Below, one piece after another: positions 13,452 through 21,844 of a stretch of 64,000 nt of DNA. This DNA is from Leucobacter chromiireducens subsp. solipictus (lineage in GTDB: Bacteria; Actinomycetota; Actinomycetes; Actinomycetales; Microbacteriaceae): assembly GCF_016758195.1 (NCBI RefSeq), contig NZ_QYAC01000002.1, forward strand, positions 434,001 through 498,000, given 5' to 3'. The notes beneath the pieces were generated by a model. That model ran no database searches. It was not told the origin of the DNA and was given only the letters and a program-made list of their open reading frames with translations. Position 1 is the first letter of the stretch. Every line of letters starts with the position of its first letter. A program made the position numbers and the translations under genes.

Positions 13452-13524
13452 GCCCTGGTAGCTCAGTGGATAGAGCACTTCTCTCCTAAAGAAGGTGTCG
13501 GAGGTTCGATTCCTCTCCAGGGCA
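13452..13524 (+). tRNA. tRNA-Arg (anticodon CCT)
   Basis: 73-base cloverleaf. Acceptor GCCCTGG pairs with CCAGGGC; D-arm GCTCAGTGGATAGAGC; anticodon stem CTTCT/AGAAG with loop CTCCTAA giving CCT; T-arm with GGTTCGATTCC. CCA is not encoded. Reads AGG codons. Confidence 0.97.
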
Positions 13525-13615
13525 CAACAGCTCCCGCCCCGGTGCTTTCCTCGGTCACCACCCGCCGCGGACCGCAGCTTCGGGCATCCCCGGGAAGGTC
13601 GGTTGGGGCGCATGT

Positions 13616-13684: not shown

Positions 13685-14173
13685 CTAGCTTGAGCTGAGC
13701 ATCTCCTGCAGGGTGGTGCGCAGCTCCTCGCTCGTGTGCACCTCCTGGTCGAGGTTCGCGGAGAGGAGCTTGCCGGACTCCGCCGCGCCGAGCGCTTCTG
13801 CGTGCATGATCAGCCCGGTGTAACTCGCGATCTCGAAGTGCTCGTTTCCCAGCGCGCTCATGAGCGCGATCTGGTTGTGGAGCTTCGGATCGGCTTTCTC
13901 GAGCAGGCTTGCCGCCTGTGTCTTGATCCCGGTCGTCGCCTGCGACGGGGCCGTCGTCGCCTCGTAGCCCAGATCCTTCAGGACCCGCTCCAGGTTGTCG
14001 ATCTGCTCCCGGGTCTCGTCGGCGTGGTGGGTGAACAGCTTCTTGATCTTCTGGTCGCGCGCGGCCGCATGCAGATCGTCGAGCGCCTCCAGCGAGTGCT
14101 GCTCCATCATGAGCGCGCTCCGCAGCGCGTAGTGGAACAGCGCTTCGGGGGTGTCGAGTGTGTGCTGAGACAT
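13685..14173 (-). CDS. DUF892 / YciF-like ferritin-fold stress protein
   Basis: 162 residues. Long amphipathic helices with repeated His and Glu residues (MMEQHSLEALDDLH, HHADETREQIDNLERVL, ALGNEHFEIASYTGLI) match the YciE/YciF ferritin-like four-helix family. The start at 14173 is fixed by GGAGGAACAC immediately upstream. Members of this family are stress-induced and possibly bind a di-iron centre; that activity is not proven by sequence. It stands alone between tRNA-Arg and the iron-permease-like gene. Confidence 0.85.
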   Translation of the reverse strand: MSQHTLDTPEALFHYALRSALMMEQHSLEALDDLHAAARDQKIKKLFTHHADETREQIDNLERVLKDLGYEATTAPSQATTGIKTQAASLLEKADPKLHNQIALMSALGNEHFEIASYTGLIMHAEALGAAESGKLLSANLDQEVHTSEELRTTLQEMLSSS

Positions 14174-14335
14174 GTGTTCCTCCAGTTCGTCAGGGACGGG
14201 CGACCGTCCAGGTGCGTCCCTCGGGTCGAGGGAGTGGATCGTGTGCCGTGGCGCATGCCGGGGGCGGTGTGACCCGGGCGTGCGCTCTGCGGTGTCGACG
14301 CGGTGCATCGCACGGCCGCGGGCGGCCGGTAGCGC

Positions 14336-14827
14336 CTAGCCCCCGGCGCGCGGCCCCACGCGCACGGGCGCGCCACGCTCGGCATTCGCATTCGCATTCG
14401 CATTCGCATTCGCATCCGCGTTTGCCGGGCGTACGAGGTTCTTGCTGGTGCTCTCGAGATCCTCGAGGCCCACGGCGGTTCGCAGTTCCTCGGCGTCACG
14501 CGGGTGGCCGTTCGCGGCCATCCAGTCGCTCAGTCCGTCCGCGATGGCGTTGAGCTTGTGTTGCACCGCCTGGTTCGCTCGGGTCTGGCTGTTCTGCAAG
14601 AGCGCGACGGACAAGAAGGTCACGATGGTCGTCAGGGTGTTGATGATGAGCTGCCACGTATCGACGCTGCGAATGAAGATGATCGATGGGGCCCACAGGA
14701 CCACCAAGAGGACGCAGAAGCAAAAGAACCAGGCTCGGCTTGCGAGGCCGGACGCGCGTTCCGCGAACCGATCGAACACACCGATATGGTCTGAGACATC
14801 GCTGGGCAAAACTGCGACACGTGCCAT
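14336..14827 (-). CDS. Low-affinity iron permease-like membrane protein
   Basis: 163 residues. Two TM helices (about 30-50 and 60-80, separated by an RSVDTWQ loop) followed by LLQNSQTRANQAVQHKLNAI, the conserved region of the low-affinity iron permease family (small bacterial homologues of fungal Fet4 N-terminus). The start at 14827 has GAGGGGG seven bases away. The C-terminal tail contains an Ala-Asn dipeptide repeat encoded by a hexanucleotide repeat (14382-14417). Iron transport by these short bacterial proteins is uncertain. Confidence 0.8.
   Translation of the reverse strand: MARVAVLPSDVSDHIGVFDRFAERASGLASRAWFFCFCVLLVVLWAPSIIFIRSVDTWQLIINTLTTIVTFLSVALLQNSQTRANQAVQHKLNAIADGLSDWMAANGHPRDAEELRTAVGLEDLESTSKNLVRPANADANANANANANAERGAPVRVGPRAGG
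14382..14417. repeat. Hexanucleotide tandem repeat (GCATTC) inside the iron-permease-like gene
   Basis: Five perfect GCATTC units plus one changed unit (GCATCC). On the coding (minus) strand this reads GCGAAT, giving alternating Ala-Asn. Unit length is a multiple of three, so copy-number change would alter tail length but not frame. Confidence 0.95.
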
Positions 14828-14975
14828 TCCCATTCCCCCTCATTCGTCTGTACCTTGGGTCGAACCAGCGCGGGTTCCCGCGTGTGTTTCCTCACGGTAC
14901 CGCCGGGAGAATGTCCCGGTGAGGCCCTTGCCGTGGACATTACGATCTGGTAACGGGGTGCGCGCGGTGTCCGCC

Positions 14976-15038: not shown

Positions 15039-16526
15039 GTGACACACTCCCCGGCCGAGGCCGCATATCTGCGCGCCGTTGCAGCGTTCAAGAACCCGAC
15101 GCTGGATCTGCTGCACGGCAGGTACGCCCCCTTTGTCGTCGCCGTGCTCACCCGCATGTTCTCGGCCGAGCGCGCGTCCGTCCCCGTGGCCGACGCCCAC
15201 GTGGAGGTCGGCGCGTTTGTCGAGGAGATACGGGCGGCGGGCGTGGCCACCGAGGATCGCCAGATCCCGGCCGGATCGGGCCGCGAGATCTGCCGCTACT
15301 GGGTGCGGGTCGGCTGGCTGGTGCCTCACATCCACGAGGGCATCGAACTGTACCGGCTGTCCGCGCAGGCGGTCGGCGCGCTCGAGGTGGCGGGCCGTGC
15401 CGGCGGCGGGCGGGCGAAGGTGTCGCGCTCTCGCGTGCGCACCCTGCTGGAATCGGTGGAGCAGCTGACGCAGAGCGCGGAGACCGACCCCGGAAAGCGG
15501 CTCGCGCGGCTCCGCGCGGAGCGGGACGAGATCGACGCGGAGATCGCCCGGCTGGAGCGGGATGAGGTGCCGTTCGAGCCGATCGACGACGACCAGCTGC
15601 TCGAAGACACCGAGAACATCCTGCACCTGTCCCGGGAACTGCCCGCCGACTTCGTGCGCGTCGCGGAGTCGATCAACGCGATGCAGCGCGATGTGATCGC
15701 GGAGCTGCGCCGCGACGAGCGCCCCGCGGGCGAGGTGCTGCGCGAATATCTGCAGCGCGGTGAACACGTCATGGACGCGACCCCCGAGGGCCGCGCGTTT
15801 TCCGGCGCGCTGAAGCTGATCGGCGACCCGGAGCACATCGATCACCTCACCGATCAACTTCAGGGGATCCTCGCCCAGCCCTTCACCCGGCTCATGTCGG
15901 CCGAGCAGCGCGGCGACCTGCGCGCGATCGCGAAGCGCGTGGAACAGGGCGTCCAGGAGGTGCTGAACGCGCAACGGCGCGCCTCCCACGTGATCACGAC
16001 CCAGGTGCGCACGCACGACCCGATCCGGGATCGCGAGGTGGACGATCTGCTCCGCGGCGTCATGGCCGGGCTGCAATCGTGGATGCCGGAATCCAAGGCG
16101 GGCGACCGGGTGGAGCCGTTGCGGAGCCTCCCGACCGGCGGGATCGGTCACCTGCGTCAGTCGCTCAACGATCTGCGGCCGCCGAACCCGCCCGCCCCGC
16201 TGCGCGATGCCGCAGCCGACGCCGAGTTCGTGGACGCGGATACGCGCGCGTGGGGCGGACCCAACTACGGGGACCTCGAGAAATACCTCGCCGGGCTCGA
16301 CTCGGAACGCTTCGACCTCGCCACCGCGTTCGAGGGGATCGCGGCGGACGGCGCGCGCCGCCCCGCCGATCTGCTCGGCCTCCTGGAACTCGCCCACCGC
16401 AACGGCAGCCTGGAGGGGGACACCGTGTCGGTGGTCGAGGCGATTCGCCCGGACGGCACCTCCCGCCGCTTCGCTTTCGCGGCCGTGACCGCGCGCACAC
16501 TGAAGGAAGACGCAGATGTTGACTGA
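15039..16526 (+). CDS. jetA: Wadjet type I protein JetA (DUF3375)
   Basis: 495 residues recognised as DUF3375, the kleisin-like subunit of the Wadjet SMC complex that bridges JetC heads. The N-terminal half is helical with a coiled coil ([19 protein letters not shown], about 150-185); the C-terminal part contains a winged-helix-like segment ([18 protein letters not shown]). Full family length. GTG start with TATCCT at 15027-15032, six bases upstream, and no ribosome site: likely leaderless. Overlaps jetB by 11 bases. Function by family: assembly of the DNA-loop-extruding complex that recognises small circular plasmids. Confidence 0.92.
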
Positions 16527-17286
16527 GCCCGAGACCCCGGCCGTGCCCGACTCGACGCCCGCCCCGGACGCCGCGGCCCCGTTCATCGAGGCCGTGGCGA
16601 TGGAGAACGACCCGGACGGAAGCTTCGCCGGGGACCGCGGCGTGCTCGAGCCGGCGGTGCGCCGCGTGCTCGTGCGGCTGCTCCAGCGCCGCGTGGTGTT
16701 CGCGGACCGCAACGCGGACGAGTGGGCCGTGCTGCTCGACAACCAGCAGGTGATCGAGTCGCGGCTGCACGACCTGTTCGTGCGGCTCATCGTCGACCTC
16801 GAACGCGGGGTCGCGTACAAGCAGCAGGTGCGCTCCGATGAGCTGGACGTGCCCGTGCTGCTGCGCGACGAGTCGTACAATCGCGCCGAAACGCTTGTGC
16901 TCGTGTATCTGCGCACGGTGTACCAGCGCGAGTCAACGGCGGGGGAGCGTGCGGTGTGGGTCGATGTCGAGGACATCGAGCAGACCGTGCTGAGCTACTT
17001 CACCGACGGCGACGGAAGTCCGGCCGCGCGGCAGAAGACGATCAAGAGCGCGCTCGGGCGTCTCCGCCAGGAGGGCATCATCGATGAGGAATCCGAGGGC
17101 CGCTACCGCATCACGCCGCTGATCGAGATCGTGCTGAGCGCGGATCGCCTGCGGGAACTGCTGAGCTGGCTGCGCGAGCAGGTGGCCCCGGACCCGCACG
17201 ATCCCACCTCCGGTCCCACGCCCGAGCCCGCCCGTGACCACGCCGCCGAGCCCCGCCACACCGATCAGGGAGAACCCACCGCATGA
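16516..17286 (+). CDS. jetB: Wadjet type I protein JetB (DUF4194)
   Basis: 256 residues with the DUF4194 core from about 40 to 215: [20 protein letters not shown], then [20 protein letters not shown] and a winged helix near 150-205 ([18 protein letters not shown]). This is the KITE-type dimer subunit of the Wadjet SMC complex. The N-terminal ~35 and C-terminal ~35 residues are Pro/Ala/Glu rich and probably disordered. Start and stop overlap jetA and jetC (ATGA junction at 17283), indicating one coupled operon. Confidence 0.92.
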
Positions 17287-20200
17287 CCATGATCGACACG
17301 CTCTTCGGCATGATTCCCGCGGCCTCGCGCGGGCAGCAGTGGGTAGCGGACGAACTGCGGCTCGTGAACTGGGGTGGCTACGACGGCGCGCACCGGGTGC
17401 GGTTCTCCTCGAACGCGACGCTGCTGTGCGGTGGATCGGGATCCGGCAAGTCGACCCTGATGGACGGCTACATCGCGCTGATGATGCCCCACACGACCCC
17501 GTTCAACGGGGCCTCGAACGGCGGTGTCACGGGCCGGCCGCGCGGCGAGGAGCAGCGCAACATCCTGTCTTACGGTCGCGGCAAGCTCGACGAGTCACGC
17601 ACCGACGAGGGCACCCGGGTGCGCGTGCTGCGCGGCGACGGTGAGGACACCTGGACGGCGCTCGCGATGACCTGGCTGGATCACGACGGCTCGCGCTTCA
17701 CCGCTGTGCGCGCCTGGTACTTCCCGGCGTCCGCCCGCCTGCTTGATGACGCCGTGAAGGTGCGCGCCACGATCGACGGACCCTTCGATCTGAGCGCGCT
17801 GGAGACCGCGGCAGCCCACCGCCTCTCCGACGCCGCGGTGAAGGCCGCGGGACTCGACACCTACGCGACGGACCGCGAGTTCTCGGCGAAAATTCACACG
17901 GTGCTCGGGATCGGGGCGGCCGGGGCCGGGGCGAAGGCCATGAGCCTGCTCGCCCGAATCCAGGCCGGGCAGCAGATCACCACCGTTGACGAGTTGTACA
18001 AGCGGATGGTGCTCGAAGAACCCGACTCGCTCGCGACCGCGGACGCGGTCGTGGGGCACTTCGACGAGCTTGAGAGCACCCGGCAGCGCATGGTGACCGC
18101 GCAGAAGCAGGTCCGGGCGCTCCGGCCCATTCGTGAGATGCGGGAGCGGATCGTGGCGGCCGCGGATCAGCTCCGCCTGCTCGACGAGATCGGCCGTTTC
18201 GGAGATCCCGATTCGCTGGCCGCGCTGTGGCGTGCGAACCGCCGGCTCGCGCTGCTGCGCGAGGTGGAGGCCGAGCTGCAGCAGGAGAAGGGGGCCGCCG
18301 ACGCGGAGGTGCGCGCCCAGCAGGCGCTCGCCGCCGCCGCGGAAGCCGAGCGCGCCGGGCTCGTCGAGGTGCTGCGAAACTCGGGCGGCGACCGCATCGA
18401 GCGGGCGGAGCGTGATCTCGGCCTGGTCGAGACGCGCCTCGAGCAGGCGCGAGCGGCCCGCGAGCGCTTCGCATCGCTCCTGCTCGGGCTCGGGGAGGAG
18501 ATCCCGAATGAGAAGGCCTTCCGCGCGCTCGTGACCCGGGCCCGGGCGGAACTCGCGGATCCGGCGGCGAAATCGGCCGTGCGCGACGCGTACGCGGATG
18601 CGCGGGGCACGACGAACGCGATCCGCGCGGAGTTGACCGGCCTCGAAGCGGAGCATCGCAGCTCGGAGTCACTGCGCGGAAACATCCCGAGCGCCCTGCA
18701 CGAGTCGCGTGAACTGCTGGCGCACGCGGCGGGGCTCTCGGCCGAGGACCTGCCCTTTGTCGGCGAACTTGTCGAGGTGCGCACGGAGTTCGAACCCTGG
18801 CGGGATGCGTTCGGGCTCGCGCTCGGCGGCTTCGCGACCACGCTGCTGATCGACGCCGAGCACCTGCCGCGGTTCCGGGCCGCGATCAACGAGGTGCGGG
18901 TGCCGTCCCGGCTGCGGTACGAGGGGGTGCGGCTCGGCACCGCGGGGAAGCCCCGCCTGGACGCGCAGCAGTTGCCGGGCCGGCTCGACTATCGCGAAGG
19001 CCCGTTCACCGCCTGGCTCCAGGAGCGCCTGGCGGATCAGTTCGGGTTCGTGTGCGTGGATGACGCGACGGCGTTTGCGGAGCATCGCATGGCGCTGAGC
19101 ATCACGGGTCAGATGTCGCAGGGAAGCCGGGGCGCGCACGGTGGGCACGGGCGCAGTTCGGTGCTCGGGTTTTCGAACCAGCGCCGCCTGGCCGAGCTCG
19201 GCGACAAGGTCGCCGACTGCGAGCGACGGTTGCAGGCCGCCGCCGAGGCCGAGCAGGAGGCTGCACGAGCGCTCGACACGATCGATGCGCGGCACACCGC
19301 CTACGGGAAGCTCGTCGAGCTGAGCTGGGAGCAGATCGACGTCGCCGCGGTGGAGCAGGAGCGTGACAACTGGGAGCGGATCGTCGCGGGCCTGGTCGAG
19401 GGGAATCCCGAGATCGAGGACCTGCAGAGCCAGATCGCCGCGCTCAAGACGCAGATCGAGGCGCAGCAGAAGAAGGTGGGCCGGGCGGAGGCCAAGCAGG
19501 AGAGCATCGCGCGGCAGTGGGCGGAGATCACCGACGAGGTGGACGCGGCGCAGCAGTCGGTCGACGAAGCCGAGGATGCGGGCCGCGAACTCGGGGACGC
19601 GCACGCCGCGTATCTGAGCGAGCGGTTCGAGACGCCGGCTACGGGCCGCGCCCGGAACCGGACGGACGCCCTCTCCCGCTTCGACGCGGCGCTCGACACG
19701 GCCGCGAAGCTGCTTCACGAGGACCAGGCCGCCGCGCAGGCGACCCTCGAAGAGCAGCGCGGGCATCTGCGTCGCGCGCTGGAAGGCTTCCTCGAAAGCT
19801 GGCCCAACCCGAATCTGCGGGCCGACCCGGATGCCTCCCTGAAGGACTTCGAACGGATCCTGGCGGAGCTCGAGACGAGCGGCCTGCACGAGCTGGAGGC
19901 CGAGTGGAAGCAGAGCCTCCTGAAGCTCTCGGGCAACGACCTGACGAACCTGGATTCCACGCTGAGCCGCGCGCTGCGCGAGATCAAGGAACGCATCGAA
20001 CCGATCAACCGCATCATGCGGGATCTGCCGTTCTACGATGACGAGCACCGCCTGCAGATCACGCCGCGCGAGACGCAGTCCGAAACGCGGCGGCGCTTCC
20101 GCGCCGAACTCCGGGACGTCCGGGCCCTCATCGCGGGGGCGCAGAGCGACGCCGAGCGCGAGCTCGCCTATGAGCGGATGGCCCGGCTGATCGGCCGGAT

Positions 20201-20639
20201 CCGGCGCACCGCCCCCGACTTCGCCGAACTCGTGGACGTGCGCAACCACGTGCGGGTCAGCGCGGAAAAGGTGCACGCCCAGACCGGACAGCACGCGGCG
20301 CTCTACGATCACATCGGTGAGAAGTCCGGTGGCGAGTCGCAGGAGCTCATCGCCTTCATCGTCGGGGCGGCGCTGCGCTACCAGCTCGGCGATGCGGACG
20401 CCGAGCGCCCGCGCTACGCCCCGGTGTTCCTCGACGAGGCGCTCATCAAGGCGGACGCGCACTTCACGAAGCGCGCGATCGGGGCGTGGCGCGGGCTCGG
20501 GTTCCAGCTCATCATCGGCGCGCCGAACGACAAGTACAGCGCGATCGAGCCCCACGTCGACGTCGAGTACGACATCCTGAAGGACACGCAGGGCCGCTCC
20601 TGGGCGAAGCCGAAGGTGGGTCTCCCCGCGCACCGCTAG
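17283..20639 (+). CDS. jetC: Wadjet type I SMC-like ATPase JetC
   Basis: 1118 residues. Intact Walker [10 protein letters not shown] (Lys56), long coiled-coil arms (about 230-470 and 640-900), a hinge-like globular region near 480-620, ABC signature KSGGES (about 1015) and Walker B APVFLDEA (Asp1051, Glu1052), followed by a D-loop/His-switch region. All ATPase motifs are therefore present. It is the motor of the DNA-loop-extruding complex. Normally jetD (TOPRIM-containing nuclease, DUF3322/DUF2220) follows; here the jetC stop instead overlaps the convergent ftsW-like gene and no jetD is seen in the window. Confidence 0.93.
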
Positions 20640-21844
20640 GTGCGCTCGGGTGGTGCGGCCTCCCGCTCCGCCTGTTCGCGGACGCACGCGAGCACCACGC
20701 CCACGGCCATGAGCGTGGAGATCAGGGAGGTGCCGCCGGCGGAAACAAAGGGGAGTGGCACTCCCAGGACGGGAATGAACCCGAGCACCACGGCCACGTT
20801 CACAGCCATCTGCGCGCTGATCCACGCGGTCGCCCCGCCGAGCACGGCGGTGGCGAAGGGGTCGTCCAGGCGGCCGATCAGGCCGACCAGGGCGAGCGCG
20901 ATGGCGACGAACGCGGCGAGGACCGCCGCGGCCCCGAGCAGCCCCAGCTCTTCCCCGGTGATCGCAAAAATGAAGTCGGTGTCGGCTTCCGGGAGCCAGG
21001 CCCACTTCGCGGTGGAGTTGCCGAGCCCCGCGCCAAAGATCCCGCCGTGCGCCAGCGCCCAGAATCCATTCAGTGACTGCCAGCACATGCCCTGCGCGTG
21101 TTCCGCGTCGGTCAGGCAGTCGATCTCCATGAACTGCACGATCCGGATCACCCGGTTCGGCTTGATCAGCGTCATGACGGCGATGCCTGCGGCGGCAATG
21201 GCCGCGATGGTCACGAGAAACCGAAAGCGCACCCCCGAGAAGTACAGGCAGCCGAACACGAGCGCGGCGATAATCATGAGTGTTCCGAGGTCCCCGCCGA
21301 TCACATTGATGCCCATCGAAAGGGCCACGACGGGGAGGATCGGGATCGCCACGTGCCACCATTCCCGCAAGAGTGGGCGCTTCGCCGCGAGAATCGTGGC
21401 GACCCAGACGAGCAGCACGAACTTCATGAACTCGGCGGGCTGCGCGGAGAGGGGGCCGAGCCGCAACCAGTTGCGGTTCCCGCCGGCCTCGTAGCCCAAC
21501 GGGGTATACACGAGCAGCTGCAGTGTGAGCCCGACGCCGAGCAGCGGCCAGGCGAGTCGCCGAAGCCGCGCGGTCGGGGTGCGGCTCAGCACCAGCAGCA
21601 GCGCGATCCCGACGACCGCGTAGCCGCCCTGCCGGATCAGCCCGGAGAACGGGCTTCCGCCCGCGGCGATCGCGGTGACCTGGCTGGCGGACTGCACCAT
21701 GAGGATGCCGAGCCCCACGAGGAGGCACACCGATGCGAGGAGCACCGTGGTGAGACTCCGGAGAGGACCGGCTTCGGTGGGGACCCCACCGAAGCCGGTC
21801 GGCCGCGCCGCGGGAAGGCGGAGGCGGCTCGACCGAGCTGCCAC
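20636..21844 (-). CDS. SEDS-family peptidoglycan polymerase (FtsW/RodA type)
   Basis: 402 residues with about ten TM helices. GVPLPFVSAGGTSLISTLMAVGVVLAC is in substance the FtsW/RodA/SpoVE signature (conserved PFVSxGGxS), and EADTDFIFAITGEELG the loop with the catalytic Asp seen in SEDS glycosyltransferases. It polymerises lipid II glycan strands at the membrane. It lies outside the division/cell-wall cluster, next to a LytR-CpsA-Psr gene, so it may be an extra paralogue rather than the essential FtsW. GTG start with AGGG upstream. The 5' coding region contains a 35-base palindrome. The stop shares the palindromic CTAG with jetC. Confidence 0.92.
   Translation of the reverse strand: MAARSSRLRLPAARPTGFGGVPTEAGPLRSLTTVLLASVCLLVGLGILMVQSASQVTAIAAGGSPFSGLIRQGGYAVVGIALLLVLSRTPTARLRRLAWPLLGVGLTLQLLVYTPLGYEAGGNRNWLRLGPLSAQPAEFMKFVLLVWVATILAAKRPLLREWWHVAIPILPVVALSMGINVIGGDLGTLMIIAALVFGCLYFSGVRFRFLVTIAAIAAAGIAVMTLIKPNRVIRIVQFMEIDCLTDAEHAQGMCWQSLNGFWALAHGGIFGAGLGNSTAKWAWLPEADTDFIFAITGEELGLLGAAAVLAAFVAIALALVGLIGRLDDPFATAVLGGATAWISAQMAVNVAVVLGFIPVLGVPLPFVSAGGTSLISTLMAVGVVLACVREQAEREAAPPERT
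21766..21800. repeat. 35-base palindrome within the 5' end of the SEDS gene
   Basis: Perfect 17-base arms (GACCGGCTTCGGTGGGG and its complement) around a single A at 21783. It lies 44-78 bases inside the predicted start of the ftsW-like gene, in a variable hydrophilic N-terminus before TM1. Confidence 0.9.

Follow-up and report, generated by a model that had tools for sequence, protein, structure and literature searches.

jetABC without jetD: a putative nuclease-free derivative of type I Wadjet in Leucobacter and related Actinomycetota

MukBEF of enterobacteria is a kleisin, KITE and structural maintenance of chromosomes (SMC) trio that lacks a nuclease, and a nuclease-free Mks complex is already known in Pseudomonas; it has been proposed that both MukBEF and MksBEF arose from the Wadjet defence system, MksBEF through loss of the nuclease. 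MukBEF apparently took over from Smc-ScpAB, as PMC10586767 describes it, and in the canonical Wadjet systems described there JetABC senses circular DNA, probably via loop extrusion, and JetD cuts it. Type I Wadjet is represented by JetABCD, by MksBEFG of Corynebacterium glutamicum and by EptABCD of Mycobacterium smegmatis, and the C. glutamicum system is described as one that does not fold the chromosome (PMC7083940). Here we analyse a type I Wadjet-like operon, jetABC, in a 64,000-nucleotide stretch of the genome of Leucobacter chromiireducens subsp. solipictus (hereafter the window), in which the gene for the JetD nuclease is missing. Judging from sequence comparisons, we consider it probable that this operon encodes a working nuclease-free SMC complex, with JetA as kleisin, JetB as KITE subunit and JetC as motor, and that this complex goes back to a type I Wadjet that lost its JetD.

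The jetABC operon and the place of jetD

Type I JetA, JetB and JetC are present together as a single plus-strand operon by both PADLOC and Pfam. The jetA gene (15039..16526) encodes a kleisin of the DUF3375 family of 495 aa (PADLOC JetA1, 682 bits, E 1.4e-205; Pfam PF11855; PDB JetA 8dk1, E 9.5e-15), jetB (16516..17286) a DUF4194/MksE-like KITE protein of 256 aa (PADLOC JetB1, 349 bits, E 2.6e-105; Pfam PF13835 and PF21980; PDB JetB 8as8, E 8.5e-08), and jetC (17283..20639) an SMC-like ATPase of 1118 aa (PADLOC JetC1, 1647 bits; Pfam SbcC_Walker_B/AAA_29; PDB JetC 8as8, E 2.3e-42) whose motifs are kept in relatives. All three frames are open, jetA and jetB overlapping by 11 bases and jetB and jetC by 4. 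The ATPase motifs of JetC are intact: Walker A (residues 50-58, 17430..17456, plus strand), located from the translation and conserved in the alignment of relatives, the signature GEKSGGES, and Walker B APVFLDEA. The original prediction, overlapping jetABC genes similar to type I Wadjet and coding for an ATPase whose motifs are intact, is thus borne out by PADLOC, Pfam and the motif alignment.

The operon therefore shares with type I Wadjet its families, gene order, overlaps and ATPase motifs, and differs from it in that JetD, the nuclease that forms the output of the system, was found neither at the locus nor, by the PF09983 profile, in the genome. What remains, a kleisin, a KITE protein and a MukB-like SMC with no nuclease subunit, resembles MksBEF of Pseudomonas aeruginosa in subunit composition; the MksE model PF21980 scores 31.5 bits (cut-off 27). 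The window proteins differ in that they match the type I Wadjet models. Unlike MksBEF, the cassette is patchy and sits in varied neighbourhoods. ScpA, used here as the marker, is present alongside jetABC in the same genome, as for an MksBEF-like complex that coexists with Smc-ScpAB, and its persistence also sets the window's genome apart from the MukBEF case. The MukB_N model matches JetC weakly and below its cut-off (20.2 bits against 23).

At the place expected for jetD there is only a 4-base overlap (20636..20639) between jetC and a convergent gene of the FtsW/RodA (SEDS) family (20636..21844, minus strand; Pfam PF01098), the stops of both genes, TAG in the case of jetC, lying within one CTAG. 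Thirteen JetD query sequences gave nothing significant against the window (best E 0.088), and a search of the whole genome (3.54 Mb, 11 contigs, 99.81% complete) with the C-terminal profile PF09983 (JetD_C) gave no match (0/1), the N-terminal domain PF11795 not being part of the genome-wide search. Because PF09983 scores 107-110 bits (cut-off 22) on three JetDs of the close JetC lineage, which also carry DUF3322, poor sensitivity is an unlikely cause of this miss; in the control set the profile matched 1 of 14 genomes, that of C. glutamicum. The earlier claims that jetC stops inside the convergent SEDS gene and that neither jetD nor a remnant lies between them consequently hold. A JetD encoded elsewhere in the genome, which the original prediction offered both as an explanation and as its own refutation, is rejected as far as this JetD_C model can see.

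The other refutation foreseen, an assembly error at the jetC/SEDS junction, is also rejected, since the separately assembled genome of Leucobacter sp. 7(1) (locus L031) has the same arrangement. There, a JetC 93% identical to that of the window stands in a jetABC operon with the same flanking order, an NlpC/P60 gene and tRNA-Arg upstream and the SEDS gene downstream; the two window genes at 13685-14833 were not found at that locus.

Distribution of JetD among relatives

Among 54 Leucobacter genomes, JetC matches were identified in 24. The close lineage (68-100% identity to the window JetC) is present in 20 of these, counting the window's own genome. A close-lineage jetC never has JetD behind it in this set. 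JetD was found in four of the 54 genomes (G005, G015, G017 and G050), and in all four it immediately follows a JetC of the distant kind (27-28% identity). One more distant JetC, that of G034 (25%), lies near a contig end and is without a JetD match. In all, a JetD match is lacking in 19 of the 20 close-lineage genomes; the exception, G015, has one only behind a second, distant jetC.

A wider scan of species genomes, taking the best 80 of 108 candidates, yielded 79 loci in Leucobacter, Microbacterium, Gulosibacter, Leifsonia, Corynebacterium, Tessaracoccus and further Actinomycetota, with JetC 55-93% identical over the best segment. The search for JetD took in as much as 4 kb of sequence following jetC, with no less than 1.2 kb available in 73 of the 79 loci; an intact JetD stands there only in Leifsonia flava (L109) and a broken one in Microbacterium helvum (L045). 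The comparison with close relatives that had been proposed as a check therefore reveals a recurrent three-gene form, nearly always jetABC alone. The absence of JetD, presented originally as special to this operon, is instead the usual state both in the close JetC lineage and in a second group described below, and JetD-less jetABC is neither a peculiarity of a single strain nor an assembly fault.

A different explanation of these operons is that JetABC works with a nuclease supplied in trans, either a diverged TOPRIM protein or an unrelated enzyme, and is still a cutting anti-plasmid system. A distant jetC with its JetD does occur elsewhere in the genomes of G015, G061, G064, G068, G079, G084 and G090, and host nucleases occur in every cell. 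However, the JetD_C search at genome level, covering 50 of the 79 loci, gave no match in 41, as in the window's own genome. The nine positive genomes comprise six (G061, G064, G068, G079, G084 and G090) with a long-open-frame JetD behind the second jetC, L109 with its own JetD, and two (G067 and G099) with fragments only; G068 holds the L045 remnant in addition to its other JetD. Every full-domain JetD found elsewhere in these genomes is thus preceded by a distant jetC of its own. Nor is there a conserved partner family beside jetABC: when called genes in flanks of up to 8 kb were clustered for the 79 loci and the window, leaving aside JetA, JetB, JetC and frames that run in reverse across these genes, the commonest families occurred in 17, 15 and 13 of the 80 sources, a result for adjacent genes that rests on a simple GC3-based gene caller, which small or badly called genes may escape. 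A conserved substitute beside jetABC is therefore rejected, and the suggestion that another nuclease had replaced JetD finds no support among adjacent genes, nucleases in trans being a separate matter. Taken together, we regard an in-trans nuclease as very unlikely, and of the three options first put forward, the most plausible one left is a complex that may act without cleaving DNA.

At the level of the family, JetC was found in 98 of 398 Microbacteriaceae genomes and JetD in 48, the JetC counts being lower bounds as two candidates were scored per genome. The 105 JetC places (the window's own excluded) were grouped by score into close (about 1500 bits or more), middle (583-644) and far (at most 313) groups. 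JetD is adjacent at 4 of the 18 close places, elsewhere in the genome at 2 and absent from the genome at 12; the corresponding numbers are 3, 4 and 31 for the 38 middle places, and 37, 3 and 9 for the 49 far places. The middle group, common in Microbacteriaceae and mostly JetD-less, has JetCs 35-39% identical to that of the window (L273, L274 and L276, from G614, G514 and G560). In a phylum-wide sample of 396 genomes, JetC was present in 16 and JetD in 22, with JetD adjacent at 8 of 17 JetC places (own excluded). Ten JetD-less neighbourhoods were examined by gene calls, one from the close group (L277), three from the middle group (L273, L274 and L276) and six from the far group (L278-L283); JetD_C has no match in any of these ten genomes, and the next called gene after jetC is convergent in six. 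The six far operons (L278, L279, L280 and L283, from G816, G658, G791 and G604; L281 and L282, from G141 and G464) are distant jetABC operons without a genome-wide JetD match, with JetCs mostly 24-32% identical to the window's; two come from another family of the class.

Probable loss of JetD and maintenance of jetABC

Two cases bear on how JetD may have disappeared. At the M. helvum locus, the first ~240 residues of JetD follow jetC in frame and end at a stop, and the C-terminal part is found in a different frame. The stretch deleted between them corresponds to the TOPRIM metal-binding core as placed in the family. Furthermore, the sister operons of G612 and G664 share jetABC at 91.7% identity over 5.9 kb, a match that begins 41 bases before jetA and stops no more than 50 bases from where jetC ends; the rest of the 16 kb regions is unmatched save for four short stretches, none longer than 147 bases. 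In G664 jetC is immediately followed by an open JetD (PADLOC JetD1; 45% identical to that of L121), and in G612 JetD is not matched anywhere in the genome. Upstream of the JetD-bearing operon of G664 lies a large gene of 1129 aa (L267, 257-3646), which, to judge by its look, may encode the R subunit of a type I restriction system and would then suggest a defence island.

Within the close lineage, the loci that carry JetD (L109, L121, L184 and L193) do not form a single clade, this grouping being rejected by the approximately unbiased (AU) test (p=0.00014) on a quick LG+G4 tree of 62 selected rows that carried long-branch warnings. Their JetDs are related: L109 and L121 share 53% identity, the L045 remnant is 40-44% identical to them, and the JetDs of L109, L121, G664 and L045, all in the same place behind jetC, are 40-53% identical among themselves and 26-35% identical to distant JetDs. 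Because of this relatedness, the shared place and the L045 remnant, we prefer to read the scatter of JetD as probable repeated loss from a type I Wadjet ancestor rather than as gain.

In the window's part of the JetC tree, no member has JetD behind jetC. This clade comprises 24 rows (support 84) and contains an inner clade of 18 (support 99) in an 88-row tree from which 7 of the 79 loci were left out; the 18-row clade has support 100 in the 62-row tree. Since four Corynebacterium rows and one Gulosibacter row nest among Leucobacter in this clade, the three-gene form itself has probably been transferred between families.

The JetD-less operons also appear to be maintained. By the Nei-Gojobori method, the ratio of nonsynonymous to synonymous substitution rates (dN/dS) in nine pairs within JetD-less groups was 0.035-0.096 for JetC, 0.050-0.108 for JetA (with only 232-247 codons in two pairs) and 0.066-0.241 for JetB, which indicates that JetD-less jetABC is under purifying selection. 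Walker A, signature and Walker B are kept in all 84 full close-lineage JetCs aligned, and the single stops in the JetC matches of G419 and G084 sit at the end of otherwise full frames.

Several points weigh against a working complex derived by loss, some concerning its history and others its activity. As to history, four state changes suffice on the close-lineage JetC tree and repeated loss needs more, which would suit an ancestor that never had JetD and a few bearers that gained it; bearers are indeed a minority (the 4 of 18 close places). Against such gain stand the presence of JetD in the same place in most distant relatives (the 37 of 49 far places), the greater mutual similarity of the JetDs of L109, L121, G664 and L045, and the decay on display in L045, so that we consider gain quite unlikely. 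In the G612/G664 pair, JetD-less against JetD-bearing, dN/dS is 0.099 for JetA, 0.306 for JetB and 0.223 for JetC; the values for JetB and JetC exceed those of most pairs, making some relaxation after loss possible, and the protein differences fall mainly in linkers and the middle region of JetC. In Tessaracoccus coleopterorum (L103) jetC is split by stops. This and the very absence of JetD are what one would expect of a decaying Wadjet remnant on its way out, a reading to which we give hardly any credence given that 72 of the 79 loci have a full jetABC (of the seven that do not, six run into a contig end and L103 alone is broken), that dN/dS is well under 1 in the nine JetD-less pairs, and that the JetD-less clade covers several genera. 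Another jet locus of T. coleopterorum, of the distant kind and holding a fragment of JetD, is broken too.

As to activity, loop extrusion by the window's JetABC is extrapolated from the Wadjets that have been studied. In Bacillus subtilis all four genes are reported as required to suppress transformation (PMC10586767), and in C. glutamicum deletion of mksG is reported to equal deletion of mksB in its effect on plasmids (PMC10123090). As JetD or MksG is needed in these hosts, JetABC alone has no known anti-plasmid activity there. A nuclease of yet another family, acting in trans, is possible.

Candidate roles and genomic setting

With these points weighed, a nuclease-free working complex remains the reading that we favour. 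By analogy with Wadjet, JetABC dimers would bind DNA and extrude loops using ATP, and without JetD would compact, tether or sequester DNA rather than cut it. The target may well be resident replicons or the chromosome, as for MksBEF; with somewhat less confidence, it could be foreign circular DNA, subjected to interference without cutting; and some other target is unlikely. Precedent favours the handling of chromosome or replicons, whereas patchiness, transfer and a tRNA site favour a role for or against mobile DNA. A more specific version of the latter, that JetABC-only operons form a widespread, horizontally mobile actinobacterial immune or anti-replicon module acting on circular DNA by loop extrusion without cutting, we hold to be doubtful. 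Were it true, the module might silence, sequester or mis-segregate circular DNA, a bacterial parallel to Smc5/6, and JetD might have been lost repeatedly owing to the cost of cutting, the motor by itself still bringing a benefit. The restriction of extrachromosomal DNA by eukaryotic Smc5/6, described as an SMC complex acting against circular DNA (PMC10586767, PMC7083940), is a possible analogue, by analogy only.

A housekeeping chromosome condensin that replaces or backs up Smc-ScpAB is, in our estimate, unlikely. Despite the precedent of MksBEF just mentioned (PMC7485682), the close lineage is patchy (20 of 54 Leucobacter genomes), the cassette is found in many neighbourhoods and Corynebacterium copies nest among those of Leucobacter. 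Moreover, ScpA, which here served as sole marker for Smc-ScpAB in place of searches for Smc and ScpB, is present in 51 of the 54 genomes and in all 45 with completeness of 90% or more and contamination of 5% or less, among them the window's own. Replacement of Smc-ScpAB by jetABC is rejected on this presence of ScpA, and jetABC is therefore unlikely to be the main condensin; it would rather be an accessory, non-cutting loop extruder.

The genomic setting of the operon is a variable site next to a tRNA gene. The 7.1 kb between tRNA-Arg (CCT) (13452..13525, plus strand; ARAGORN), at one edge, and the SEDS gene, at the other, hold jetABC and two opposite-strand genes, a DUF892/ferritin-like gene (13685..14308, minus strand; Pfam) and a low-affinity iron permease family gene (14336..14833, minus strand; Pfam PF04120). 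These further cargo genes are unmatched in L031, L238 and L239. In other Leucobacter genomes the SEDS gene is closely matched (65-91%), and in L238 and L239 the match lies near tRNA-Arg. In G029 (L239) ~0.3 kb separates these tRNA and SEDS genes, in G007 (L238) ~1.2 kb of other DNA (about 340-1540) stands between them, and in both genomes jetABC lies elsewhere; it is on these grounds that we call the site variable. The filling of the site in G007 suggests that it takes varied cargo. No member of the close lineage was seen on plasmids or phages: JetC matched 15 plasmid records (72,556 searched) and a single phage record (50,697 searched), always below 60% identity.

If the preferred history is right, the step from Wadjet to an MksBEF-type complex could be observed in living relatives, through the gutted JetD locus and the sister pair that differs by JetD, and the function of a motor without a cutter would become testable with closely related natural operons. 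Genomes scored as having Wadjet on JetA, JetB and JetC matches alone may hold no cutting system. JetD-less Wadjet is not named in the literature searched, which was open-access only, so that an earlier mention in subscription papers is possible.

Two minor observations concern JetB. The IFDR motif, described as the JetD-binding motif of JetB (PMC10586767), could not be used as a sign of JetD loss, IFDR being unseen in the JetB N-termini of this lineage with or without JetD as well as in the PDB JetB alignments. At residues 23-30 (window 16582-16605), after a variable leader, JetB carries the pattern F-[IV]-x-x-x-x-M-E, which is largely kept across the close lineage whether JetD is present or absent.
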